This document shows positions 29,850 to 33,528 of a DNA stretch of 64,000 nucleotides, piece by piece; position 1 is the stretch's first letter; every line of letters begins with the position of its first letter. The stretch is taken from contig NZ_NFLL01000001.1 of the NCBI RefSeq assembly GCF_002160895.1, forward strand, positions 1 to 64,000, read 5' to 3'. A program made the position numbers and the translations under genes. Origin of the DNA: Faecalibacterium sp. An122. GTDB taxonomy: Bacteria; Bacillota; Clostridia; Oscillospirales; Ruminococcaceae. The notes under the pieces were generated by a model that saw only the letters and a program-made list of their open reading frames with translations, was not told the DNA's origin and searched no databases.

Positions 29850-30299
29850 TTAGATTTGGTCCAGCAGGGCACCTCCGTCCGAGAGATTGGCCGGCTCCTT
29901 CAGCGGGGCGCGCAGGATGTAGTCGGTTTGGGCGGGGCTGCTGGTCAGCTCGAAGGGGAGGGGCTGATCCTTCCACACATCGTAATAGTGGGCCTGATAC
30001 CGCCGATTGAACCCGGAAACCCACACCTGAAACTGAAAATCCCGGTGGACGAACACCACCGCCACTTTCAGTCCTTTTTCCTTGAGCTCTGGGCTGGTGA
30101 ACTGGAAATAGGAGAAGTCCATGCTGTTTTCGGTGATGCTGCCCTGAAACTTGTATTCCGGCATCCTCTTTTCGAGCTCCACGCGAACCCAGCGGAACAG
30201 GCGGATGAATTCCCGGTAGCAGGCGATCAGCCGGGTGGTTTGGAGCAGTTCCTGGTATTCGAGCAGCAAGCCTGCGTCAAAGTGCATGGTCTCGTCCAT
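29850..30299 (-). CDS. DUF7000-like protein, possibly truncated by a stop codon
   Basis: This 149-residue soluble protein has the pattern LLEYQELLQTTRLIACYREFI, SITENSMDFSYFQFTSPELKEKGLK and VVFVHRDFQFQVWVSGFNR, which I associate with DUF7000, a family of unknown function. The ATG at 30299 has AAAGGAC upstream. The TAA at 29850-29852 follows ALLDQI, but the same frame stays open for 14 more codons (reading ALAENLLQFVEANL) to a TGA at 29805. That is a plausible natural C-terminus, so this may be a recent nonsense change or an assembly error. Confidence 0.7.
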   Translation of the reverse strand: MDETMHFDAGLLLEYQELLQTTRLIACYREFIRLFRWVRVELEKRMPEYKFQGSITENSMDFSYFQFTSPELKEKGLKVAVVFVHRDFQFQVWVSGFNRRYQAHYYDVWKDQPLPFELTSSPAQTDYILRAPLKEPANLSDGGALLDQI

Positions 30300-30402
30300 G
30301 GTTGTTCTCAGTCCTTTTCTCTCTTGTGGGACCGGCCGGGGGCCGGCGTCAGCTTCGGATACGGCCTCTCTGCCAAAGGCAGAGGGCAGGGAAGCCCGGA
30401 CA

Positions 30403-30454
30403 AAACAAAAAAACCTGGCGGATGAGAGCGGTTGCAAGCCTCTCATCCGCCAGG
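30403..30454 (-). terminator. Intrinsic terminator of the large non-coding RNA
   Basis: On the minus strand the arms CCTGGCGGATGAGAG and CTCTCATCCGCCAGG form a perfect 15-bp stem followed by TTTTTTTGTTTTG. No protein gene lies upstream of it on this strand until argS, which has its own terminator at 31675-31706. It must therefore end a non-coding transcript. Confidence 0.9.
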
Positions 30455-30690
30455 ATACTTACTTCTTCGGAGTCATAGCCTCTTTGCCTCACATTTACCT
30501 ATTTTTCGGAGTTGACCTTGCCTTTCATAAGATTGTTGGCCTTTCCTTATGCTTAGGAAATGATAGGGTAGGGGATCGCCGATTTAACTAGTACATTGGT
30601 TTCAAGCCTCATCCGAATCGTTGGATTGCGTCTTACGAAGCATCTTCATAGAAACACATTCTTTCGATTGAATCACTCCAGGGGACAAGT

Positions 30691-30798
30691 TACCTAAATC
30701 ATTGGAGTACTCCCTCCGTGTTACTCAAATATCTGCATCCATACAGGGACTTTCATGGGGGATCATCCTCTCGGGGGTGCTGATTTATTTGAATGACC
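30691..30798 (-). repeat. Duplicated RNA domain, 3' copy
   Basis: The copy resembles 31195-31298. On the RNA strand both contain ATTCAAATA, then a variable loop region with ATGAAAG, then TATTTGARTA and a conserved tail with GGAG, ACTCCAATGATTTA. In this copy the closing stem carries TATTTGAGT, turning a U-A pair into U-G, which keeps pairing. Confidence 0.8.
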
Positions 30799-31194
30799 GT
30801 TGTTCGGATAGGGGAATTATTCAGCTTTGAAAGATTACCTCAAGGGCTTCTGTTGGTTTTCAGATCTTCTAGGGAAGGGTGTTTTGCAATCGTTACGGCA
30901 TCCAGTGCATTTTGCTTCGATCCGGGGAGGCTTTGTTGGGGCACATCGCCGCCAATCAAGCCAATGGATCTTTTTCCTGTCTGCAATTTCCAGATGGATT
31001 CAGACTCTGAACAGCGGCTCTTACTGGAACCACCTTTTTCAGTTTCCGTCTCCTCCAAATTGACACCTTACAGGGAAGAGGTCTGCCTTCCGACTATGCT
31101 TCCGGCACTTTTGATCGATCGAATGCAGGTCCAGCCTTGATTTGCTGTGCATCCTTGCCAATCTGAGGGTTTGCGCCTGCCTTGAGGCCACGAC

Positions 31195-31298
31195 TACTTA
31201 AATCATTGGAGTAGCTCCTTCCGTGCTATTCAAATACAGGTATCCGTAAAAAGGCTTTCATCATATGAATCACTTCCTGCGGATCTATTTGAATCGCC
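31195..31298 (-). repeat. Duplicated RNA domain, 5' copy
   Basis: The counterpart of 30691-30798. The stem ATTCAAATA/TATTTGAAT is perfect here (plus coordinates 31228-31236 and 31286-31294). The tail GGAGCTACTCCAATGATTTAAGTA matches the other copy at most positions, while the apical part has diverged. Confidence 0.8.
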
Positions 31299-31557
31299 AA
31301 GGGACTTTCTCGACAGACTGTTCGTAAATCGCTTAATATATGCTAAAGACTTCGCTTTAAATCTCTTAGATTTTTACTAAATGCGGGGGAAACATCCCGT
31401 ACTGGTAAGCGGCTTTTCGCTTTTCAGCAATTCCCGACAGTCTGTCCGAACTGTGCGGGTGTCGTATCAACCATCGGTCTTCGCTCCTTTCTCCTTTTAA
31501 GTCAGCGGGATTGGATCACCTTTGATCCTCTGCTGTACTTTCTTGGTTTCTGGCTAT

Positions 31558-31586
31558 ATTATATCCGAAAGGGTGGCCGCTGTCCA
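31558..31586 (-). promoter_or_regulatory. Promoter of the large non-coding RNA
   Basis: On the minus strand TGGACA and a perfect TATAAT are separated by 17 bp. It lies about 90 bp beyond the argS terminator, so it defines a separate transcription unit. Confidence 0.75.
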
Positions 31587-31674
31587 TTCGCAGAATCCAC
31601 AAGGAATATCTTGTGATTTTGTATAGTTTTGATTTTGCTTGTGGATAAACCGTTGTATAAAGTGTGAACAGACC

Positions 31675-31713: not shown

Positions 31714-33528
31714 TTACATCTTGTCGGGAACGTTGATCTTGAACATGGTCAGCACGTTGCGGATCACGTTGCGCACGCCGATGCACAGGGCGATGCGGGC
31801 CTGCTGCAGGGCAGGATCAGCGCCCTGGATGCGGCAGCTGCCGTAGAACCGGTGGAAGGCGCTGGCCAGGTCGATGACAAAGCGGTTGATCCGGCTGGGA
31901 TCGTACTTTTCTGCGGCCATGACGATTTCCTGGGGGAAGGCGGCCAGCATCCGGATCAGATCCAGCTCGGCGGGATCGGTCAGCAGGGTGGCGTCGGTGT
32001 TCTCTGCGCCCAGGAACTCCACGCCCTCGCTCTCCAGCTTGCGCAAAATAGAGCAAATGCGGGCGTGAGCGTACTGGACGTAGTAGACCGGGTTGTCGTT
32101 GTCGGTCTTGACGGCCTGGTCCAGATCGAAGTCGATGCTGCTGCCGGCCTCGTGCATATTAAAGAGGAAGCGGGCGCTGTCGATGGGCACCTCCTCCAGC
32201 AGGTCGGTCAGGGTGATGGCGTTGCCGGTGCGCTTGGACATGCGGACGGGCTGGCCGTTCTGCATCAGGTTGACCATCTGCATCAGAACCACGTCCAGAC
32301 GGCTGCCGTCCAGGCCGATGGCATCCATGGCACCCTTCATGCGGGCCACATGGCCGTGGTGGTCGGCGCCCCAGACGTCGATGGCCTTGTCAAAGTTGCG
32401 GTCGGCCAGCTTGTTGTAGTGGTAGGCGATGTCGGCGGCAAAGTAGGTGGGGATGCCGTTGGCGCGGACCAGGACTTCGTCCTTGTCCTCCTCGGCGCCG
32501 TCGTCGGTCTTTTTCTTGTTGGCAGCGCCGTACTTGGCGGCATACTGGGCGCTGCGGTACATGATGGCGCCGTCCTCGGCCTTGTAGCAGGCGCCCTTCT
32601 CCAGCAGCTGGTTCACCACGTTCATGACAGCGCCCGAGTTGTGCAGGGTACTCTCAGGGAACCAGACGTCGTACTGGATGCGGTACTTGCCCAGGTCGGT
32701 CTTGAGGGCGGCGATGTTCTTGGGCAGGGCGTAGCCCACCAGAGCGTCCTTCAGGGCGGCAAAAGCCTCGCTCTCATAGAGAGCCTCGTCCTTCAGGCCG
32801 CGGCAGGGAACGGCGTACTTGTCGCCCTCTTTGGCTGCGAACTCCAGAGCCAGCAGGGTGATGTCGCCGCCCTGGTAGCACTCCTTGGGCAGGGGATACT
32901 CGTTCTCCTCGTAGTAGTGCTGCAGGTAGCGGATGGCCAGGCTCTTGCCGAACTTCTGGATCTGGTTGCCGGCGTCGTTGATATAGAACTCACGGGTGAC
33001 GTCGTAGCCGGCCCACTCCAGAACAGCGGACAGGCAGTCGCCCAGAGCACCGCCGCGGGCGTTGCCCATGTGCATGGGGCCGGTGGGGTTGGCGGAAACG
33101 AATTCCACGTTGTAGCGCTTGCCCTGGCCGTAATCGGTCCGGCCATAGCGGGGGTTGGAGCAGGCAGCCAGGGCCACGCCAGCCCAGAAGGCGGGAGCCA
33201 GGAACAGGTTGATGAAGCCGGGGCCGGCGGTCTCGGCCTTGGTGAAGCAGCTGTCCGACAGAGAGGGCAGGTGGCTCAGAATGGCCTCGGCGATCATCTT
33301 GGGGGCCTTGTGCCAGGTGCGGGCGCCGGCCATGGCGATGTTGGAGGCAATGTCGCCGTTCTTGGTGTCGGCGGGAACCTCCACGATGAAGGCGGGCAGC
33401 TCGGCGGCGGGCAGGTCGCCGGCCTCCATGGCGGCCTGCGCAGCCTGAGTCAGCAGGTCGCGGGCCTGGGCCAGAGCGGCCTGGCGGGGGTTGTAATTCT
33501 CAAAAGCGGGGTAAGTTGCATTGCTCAT
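31714..33528 (-). CDS. argS: Arginyl-tRNA synthetase
   Basis: This 604-residue class I synthetase charges tRNA-Arg. An N-terminal Add1-like domain with GDIASNIAM is followed by the HIGH variant NPTGPMHMGNARGG, the catalytic core with RMSKRTGNA in the KMSK position, and a DALR anticodon-binding domain ending FKINVPDKM. The ATG at 33528 (MSNATYP) has AAAGGA upstream. It lies 72 bp after the DUF1934 gene with no terminator between, so it is the last gene of the ddl-murI operon. Confidence 0.96.
   Translation of the reverse strand: MSNATYPAFENYNPRQAALAQARDLLTQAAQAAMEAGDLPAAELPAFIVEVPADTKNGDIASNIAMAGARTWHKAPKMIAEAILSHLPSLSDSCFTKAETAGPGFINLFLAPAFWAGVALAACSNPRYGRTDYGQGKRYNVEFVSANPTGPMHMGNARGGALGDCLSAVLEWAGYDVTREFYINDAGNQIQKFGKSLAIRYLQHYYEENEYPLPKECYQGGDITLLALEFAAKEGDKYAVPCRGLKDEALYESEAFAALKDALVGYALPKNIAALKTDLGKYRIQYDVWFPESTLHNSGAVMNVVNQLLEKGACYKAEDGAIMYRSAQYAAKYGAANKKKTDDGAEEDKDEVLVRANGIPTYFAADIAYHYNKLADRNFDKAIDVWGADHHGHVARMKGAMDAIGLDGSRLDVVLMQMVNLMQNGQPVRMSKRTGNAITLTDLLEEVPIDSARFLFNMHEAGSSIDFDLDQAVKTDNDNPVYYVQYAHARICSILRKLESEGVEFLGAENTDATLLTDPAELDLIRMLAAFPQEIVMAAEKYDPSRINRFVIDLASAFHRFYGSCRIQGADPALQQARIALCIGVRNVIRNVLTMFKINVPDKM

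Follow-up and report, generated by a model that had tools for sequence, protein, structure and literature searches.

The minus strand at positions 31592-30401 carries what we predict to be a self-contained transcription unit, and its RNA is very probably a translated one that holds a string of mini-ORFs. The unit lies in the window, by which we mean the whole 64,000-nt stretch of the Faecalibacterium sp. An122 genome that was analysed. The original prediction had seen no usable frame on the transcribed strand, and this was refuted: nine short ORFs (sORFs) led by a Shine-Dalgarno (SD) sequence are present and conserved in relatives. A long ORF is indeed absent there, the longest one wholly inside being 72 aa with a TTG start. 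In RNA order the nine sORFs have 16, 12, 2, 11, 2, 15, 2, 9 and 5 codons, and three of them (C1, C2 and E) consist of a start codon, one codon and a stop (start-X-stop). In the window, sORF A comes first and is followed by pairs made of a longer sORF and a very short one 5-22 nt further on. Comparison among relatives supports the predicted promoter and terminator and part of the fold, and speaks for selection on the start and stop of translation; it also suggests that binding ribosomes may be the RNA's own job. The features are as follows, each peptide being followed by a stop codon.

31558-31592, minus strand: conserved promoter, TGCGAATGGACA-17-TATAAT, with a conserved extended -35 box
31513-31528, minus strand: hairpin H1, GGATCA-AAGG-TGATCC, with both-side changes in 2 of 5 pairs among 16 short-form relatives
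31424-31474, minus strand: sORF A, 16 codons, MVDTTPAQFGQTVGNC, SD AAAGGAG
31437-31446, minus strand: long-range helix LR1, 5' strand, within sORF A
31384-31399, minus strand: hairpin H2, CGGG...CCCG, with no both-side change seen
31312-31321, minus strand: long-range helix LR1, 3' strand
31225-31294, minus strand: hairpin around the SD and sORF B1, ATTCAAATA / TATTTGAAT
31226-31264, minus strand: sORF B1, 12 codons, MMKAFLRIPVFE
31198-31206, minus strand: sORF C1, start-X-stop, ATG ATT TAA (MI), SD AAGGAG
30757-31197, minus strand: 441-nt spacer from C1 to B2, in the 8 long-form genomes examined
30721-30794, minus strand: sORF B hairpin, second copy
30721-30756, minus strand: sORF B2, 11 codons, MKVPVWMQIFE
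30694-30702, minus strand: sORF C2, start-X-stop, ATG ATT TAG (MI)
30602-30649, minus strand: sORF D, 15 codons, MKMLRKTQSNDSDEA, weak SD
30588-30596, minus strand: sORF E, start-X-stop, ATG TAC TAG (MY)
30499-30528, minus strand: sORF F, 9 codons, MKGKVNSEK
30459-30476, minus strand: sORF G, 5 codons, MTPKK
30401-30454, minus strand: intrinsic terminator, 15-bp stem and T tract
29850-30446, minus strand: DUF7000 gene, between the RNA and metG in the window

The borders of the unit agreed with the original prediction. The promoter TGGACA-17-TATAAT matches the consensus at 11 of 12 positions, and the pattern TGCGAATRGACA-N15-19-TATAMTA has a single occurrence in the own genome. The unit starts beyond argS, as had been stated, with argS ending at 31714 and a terminator-like hairpin at 31705-31687. 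At the other end, the perfect 15-bp terminator has its arms at 30414-30428 and 30440-30454, followed by a T-rich stretch, and 7 of its 15 pairs show both-side changes among the short-form relatives. The RNA unit has a G+C of about 0.4-0.5, compared with about 0.6 for the genes on either side. Immediately 5' of the RNA promoter, at 31595-31646 of the window, we observed an imperfect inverted repeat, TTATCCACAAG / CTTGTGGAT, which resembles DnaA boxes. A TTGTGnA-like stretch ahead of TCTGCGAAT is found again in many relatives.

We then considered whether the RNA belongs to a catalogued family. The proposed check against Rfam covariance models was run with Rfam 15. At the gathering score no family matched within the RNA, the sole match in the whole window being a tRNA elsewhere, and the weak matches obtained in the RNA region with E up to 10 were not credible. 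The models for tmRNA, 6S, OLE, ROOL, GOLLD and HEARO all stayed below their gathering scores on the RNA, so that the suggested kinship with the last four did not hold up. The T-box model found no match inside the unit, and in 20 further loci, either homologous or belonging to a family f14 described at the end, Rfam matches were confined to the flanking DNA.

The results of homologue searches showed that the unit is widespread in its genus and extends beyond it. Of 100 genomes searched at the DNA level, the own one among them, 30 matched, one (L031 in G053) probably by chance. Within Faecalibacterium, 28 of 31 genomes matched, own included, as did all 22 near-complete congeners (at least 90% complete, at most 5% contaminated); the unit is conserved in Gemmiger and six further genera as well. 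An exact-pattern scan of named genomes confirmed that the congeners are Faecalibacterium and added Gemmiger (G. formicilis and others) and an uncultured Subdoligranulum. It returned 36 stretches, comprising 19 from Faecalibacterium, 8 from Gemmiger, 1 from Subdoligranulum according to its title, and 8 others that were judged to be chance from their taxa, L103 alone of these having been read. Mini-ORF arrays were read in Gemmiger. The RNA thus occurs in Faecalibacterium prausnitzii and Gemmiger, which are common gut commensals. BLASTN found no match for the relative L013 among phage records, nor for the window RNA among plasmid records.

More distant relatives were sought with a sequence model covering the SD together with the first ORF; of 396 genomes of the family, 60 passed at E<=0.01. 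We counted 28 of these as real, namely 7 in Faecalibacterium and 21 loci in six other genera; L083 and L086 look like parts of protein genes, that is, chance matches, and 30 weaker matches lay outside the inspected set. In all 21 loci of the six other genera an A-like ORF is accompanied by one or more SD-led start-X-stop ORFs, and the Gemmiger A peptide is present in none of them. An order-wide search with model R3 matched 16 of 394 genomes at E<=0.001. Six of these matches were RNAs of this kind already found; when the start regions of the remaining ten were read, nine looked like ordinary gene starts and one (L138) led to the f14 unit. The genus-wide pattern GAGG-N3-12-CRATGTACTRR, searched in 31 genomes, gave 21 matches in 16 genomes, of which 11 lie in the RNA and 2 in a g92-like stretch of G013; the other 8 are comparable to the reversed control (12), so no second locus was seen. 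Contig C103 of G013, a Faecalibacterium assembly, carries g92-type start-X-stop motifs, perhaps through contamination. In genus g13, the sORF A model gave paired matches about 0.8 kb apart (G042:C5 at 13286 and 14072; G198:C32 at 2878 and 2049), which are possibly tandem RNA copies.

The predicted length of 1.15 kb holds for the window and is not typical of its nearest relatives. Among the 24 closest RNAs, including that of the window, 16 measure 625-645 nt and 8 measure 1103-1147 nt, lengths that rest on end-points set by us. The long form has the module of sORFs B and C twice, in copies about 505 nt apart. The 441-nt spacer between them includes the 5' arm of the second B hairpin, and no convincing conserved SD-led ORF was found in it in the eight long-form genomes. 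The window's 1.15 kb reflects a duplicated module plus this spacer. In L027 a larger block, B-C-D-E, has a second copy, which we took for an independent duplication.

The order of parts was unchanged in the Faecalibacterium homologues read. Of the 28 Faecalibacterium homologues, 26 have a 16-codon sORF A, sORF F has 9 codons in 17 of 28 and 7 codons in the other 11, and the 32 copies of sORF B, picked by their TTT-GAR end, have 10-12 codons; in these three tallies the ORFs were picked by script within length limits. The lengths of F, B and A vary by whole codons, and indels in F and B spare the frame and the stop. The start of sORF D is homologous in relatives and its stop has no single aligned place, a 2-nt indel shifting it in L011 and L012. 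sORF E is retained as start-X-stop in 18 of the 24 closest RNAs and is not two codons long in 6, and C1, C2 and E are identical in all 8 long-form genomes. sORF G, whose stop lies 4 nt ahead of the terminator stem in the window, reads MTPKK in 16 of the 17 homologues chosen for alignment and MTPIG in the remaining one. In Gemmiger, read by eye and not placed on the tree, 1 of 9 loci no longer has the stop of sORF C, and sORF E has 3-4 codons in all 6 loci where it was recognised.

Chance is a poor explanation of these tiny ORFs. SD-preceded start-X-stop ORFs numbered 66 on the RNA strand and 0 on the opposite strand of 29 RNAs (28 from Faecalibacterium and 1 from genus g13), the 66 not being independent events because the RNAs are related. 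The three in the window compare with a shuffle mean of 0.205 (P 0.001). When seven RNAs were shuffled individually, four others gave 0 of 1000, L028 gave 0.007 and L030 gave 0.072, which is not significant. At tree-mapped stop positions (TAA, TAG, TGA), parsimony gave 15 stop-to-stop changes versus 2 losses, in a count made without long-form rows and without Gemmiger, which is not on the tree. With two ninths of changes expected to preserve a stop the binomial P is 1.4e-8, and with 44% it is 2e-4. The second codon of start-X-stop ORFs depends on the lineage (Tyr, Ile, Phe, Trp, Cys, Asn), with start and stop constant. Among the loci read, TAC is the commonest second codon and TAT never occurs, indicating that the nucleotides are under constraint too. 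These comparisons indicate that start-X-stop ORFs are under selection, which seems to favour ribosomes starting and stopping more than it favours the peptides.

We next assessed the fold. The tetraloop hairpin H1 is present at 31513-31528, with its pairing read by eye, and the perfect 10-bp long-range helix that had been predicted was found between 31312-31321 and 31437-31446. Compensatory changes support the latter (G-C to C-G in 2 sequences, A-U to G-C in 8), and one of the 10 pairs is missing from 8 of the 16 relatives. The covariation set comprised 52 pairs in seven helices and 16 short-form relatives, in which 97.5% of cells are paired. Both-side changes occur in 13 of the 52 pairs, a number reached by 0 of 500 shuffles, and the covariation score is 0.169 for the chosen helices versus 0.029-0.056 when these are slid, a result that leans towards the chosen helices because some of them were selected with RNAalifold on the same alignment. 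The count of further pair types was unremarkable (75 of 500 shuffles), and the RNAalifold covariation term is small, at -1.56 of -104.8 kcal/mol. Compensatory changes were seen in H1, LR1, the helix at the SD of sORF E and the terminator, and not in H2 or the B hairpin; in the B hairpin all cells are paired and changes are one-sided only. The 5' strand of LR1 lies inside sORF A and the 3' strand of the B hairpin is the end of sORF B, so that translation would have to open these helices; the overlap itself is visible in the sequence. The prediction of a structured RNA therefore stands in that the fold partly covaries and the unit is conserved across genera, and its label of non-coding falls with the conserved SD-led tiny ORFs.

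We propose, at a little short of an even chance, that the RNA is a folded string of tiny ORFs on which ribosome loading shields the RNA and tunes its fold and level, and that it acts in trans. The RNA would be transcribed as an independent folded unit, and ribosomes would load at every mini-ORF, add 2 to 16 residues and depart; on start-X-stop ORFs they could bind and leave without any purpose for a peptide. With residues drifting between starts and stops that stay in place, and with most ORF lengths preserved, the product would be ribosome loading and not a peptide. The loaded ribosomes most likely protect the long RNA against nucleases or early termination, and they would compete with the helices that overlap ORFs, namely LR1 through sORF A and the B hairpin at the end of sORF B. 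The efficiency of translation initiation would in this way be read out in the level and fold of the RNA, which would itself act in trans on a putative target. Protection of this kind has precedents: in Bacillus, long untranslated RNA can be stabilised by a strong SD that need not have a start codon (PMC3997798), and the ribosome site of a mini-ORF protects an E. coli mRNA (PMC8708949). Ribosome cladding leaves the 441-nt stretch of the window without a convincing SD-led ORF unexplained. Somewhat more tentatively still, the RNA may represent a new bacterial class, ribosome-clad, built of repeated mini-ORF modules and serving as a trans-acting gauge of translation initiation.

The main rival to this ribosome-clad reading is a brake of the lambda bar type, in which the two-codon ORFs release dipeptidyl-tRNAs (fMet-Tyr, -Ile, -Phe and -Trp are proposed), sequester these tRNAs along with initiation complexes, and thereby reduce the rate of protein synthesis in trans. 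C1, C2 and E do have the sequence of bar-type minigenes, an SD followed by AUG, one codon and a stop, and several such ORFs sit on a single RNA. Inhibition by the lambda bar minigene via peptidyl-tRNA has been reported (titles cited in PMC8012679), and an excerpt of PMC10192219 describes dipeptidyl-tRNA drop-off in E. coli as frequent, with Met-Phe above Met-Ile. However, the second codons vary (Tyr, Ile, Phe, Trp, Cys and Asn and, in the f14 unit, Gly), the longer sORFs of 5-16 codons are conserved as well, and the two-codon minigene of axe-txe acts in cis and without toxicity (PMC8708949); we consider such a brake unlikely, at about one chance in five. We regard as less likely again a polycistronic message for functional micro-peptides such as the 16-mer A, the 5-mer G and others, for example as signals. 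The EPxQ-like core of A is kept in many loci of other genera and, like MTPKK of G (16 of 17 aligned), is conserved beyond the expectation of pure drift. Against this, the residues of B, D and F diverge widely among homologues, two-codon ORFs yield dipeptides only, and the variable columns per codon position (A 9, 7, 9; B 11, 11, 13; F 9, 8, 6) show no third-position excess, an evenness that argues against strong residue selection in A, B and F, with low power in ORFs this short. The MTPKK segment is conserved at the nucleotide level, and this, together with the covariation in some helices, would also fit a purely structural non-coding RNA whose ORFs are by-products of SD-like purine motifs. 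That explanation is scarcely credible, as 15 of 17 inferred stop-codon changes yield another stop, the frame is kept despite indels in F and B, and start-X-stop ORFs with different codons recur in several lineages.

The gene neighbourhood bears on a further alternative, in which the RNA is a leader or attenuator of downstream metG. metG often follows the RNA on the same strand, as it does in the window clade, in further Faecalibacterium loci and in the regions examined from g9, g26 and g92, and the last sORF of the window ends close to the terminator stem, which gives the attenuator-like arrangement of a small ORF (G) beside an intrinsic terminator; a constant downstream gene was not found. 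The window's metG has its own 12/12 promoter and a T-box leader at 29665-29404 (minus strand), which scores 90.8 bits with the Rfam T-box model, just under the gathering score of 93, so that a gathering-score scan misses it. A search of the RNA-metG interval in 12 loci gave a promoter-like site of 11 or 12 of 12 in 8 loci and one of only 8-9 of 12 in the other four. The DUF7000 gene intervenes in the window, metG is convergent in 5 of the 6 Gemmiger loci where it was seen, and it was not found within the fetched regions of g13 (1) and g143 (2). The leader reading is thus very improbable overall, and for the window RNA we rejected it on account of the separate metG promoter and T-box. The distance, orientation and intervening genes of metG vary among loci, and with this variable neighbourhood and the separate promoter and T-box the RNA seems to stand alone. 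argS was seen upstream of the RNA in the window clade, in L027 and L028, in g9, g13 and Gemmiger, and at one locus of g26 and one of g92; a general link to argS was rejected, since argS is absent from the wider g26 region L170 and the g92 regions L171 and L172. In Faecalibacterium sp. I4-3-84 the RNA is near ATP-synthase-like genes, recognised by eye, and adjoins a DUF2798 gene.

Returning to the ribosome-clad RNA, we compared it with known systems. Lambda bar, axe-txe mg2, LEE1 and the ycbK leader likewise contain AUG-X-stop, and there too translation is thought to matter over the product; unlike these, the window RNA has several such ORFs alternating with ORFs of 5-16 codons, in a structured unit that stands alone, ends in its own terminator and contains no main gene. 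With OLE, ROOL, GOLLD and HEARO it shares the nature of a long structured RNA unit, but it has no Rfam match and is lined with conserved mini-ORFs. Like the STAB-SD 5' stabilisers of Bacillus mRNAs, its strong ribosome sites could protect a long RNA, but here many sites and short ORFs are spread along the length and a long coding region is absent. Leader-peptide attenuators and T-box leaders resemble it in a tiny ORF abutting a terminator and in aminoacyl-tRNA synthetase gene neighbours, whereas the RNA has no constant downstream gene and the window's metG is separately equipped. Dual-function sRNAs also combine an RNA with a small ORF, whereas the window RNA has nine, down to two codons.

To our knowledge, minimal start-X-stop ORFs are familiar mainly from lambda and a few leaders. 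We found no description of such a mini-ORF RNA in the literature, subscription papers and preprints being outside the scope of the search; PMC4052509, considered in part as related literature, was not relevant. Ordinary ORF finding and Rfam miss the RNA because its ORFs are too short and it is uncatalogued. According to an excerpt of PMC8040213, Fremin and Bhatt listed 3161 candidates of 27-219 bp, so pieces of the RNA could be among them. If the proposed reading is true, the boundary between coding and non-coding RNA would be blurred, translation would serve as a structural and regulatory device in which peptides matter little, and the start-X-stop ORF would become a testable recurrent element.

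Finally, the f14 unit, shorter and likewise stand-alone, is a possible cousin of the RNA with a similar layout. A DNA query from one unit, a few hundred nt long, matched 15 of 150 genomes of this other family. The first ORF after the promoter is start-X-stop in 13 of 15 loci (L142-L156), a sample biased because the query held that ORF; its middle codon is Tyr (TAC), Asn (AAC) or Gly (GGC), and its stop codon is variable. By script, the last ORF, adjacent to the terminator, is of the M(V/T)EIQ type in 6 of 12. At their far end the f14 units tend to have a short ORF right next to a C-rich terminator.
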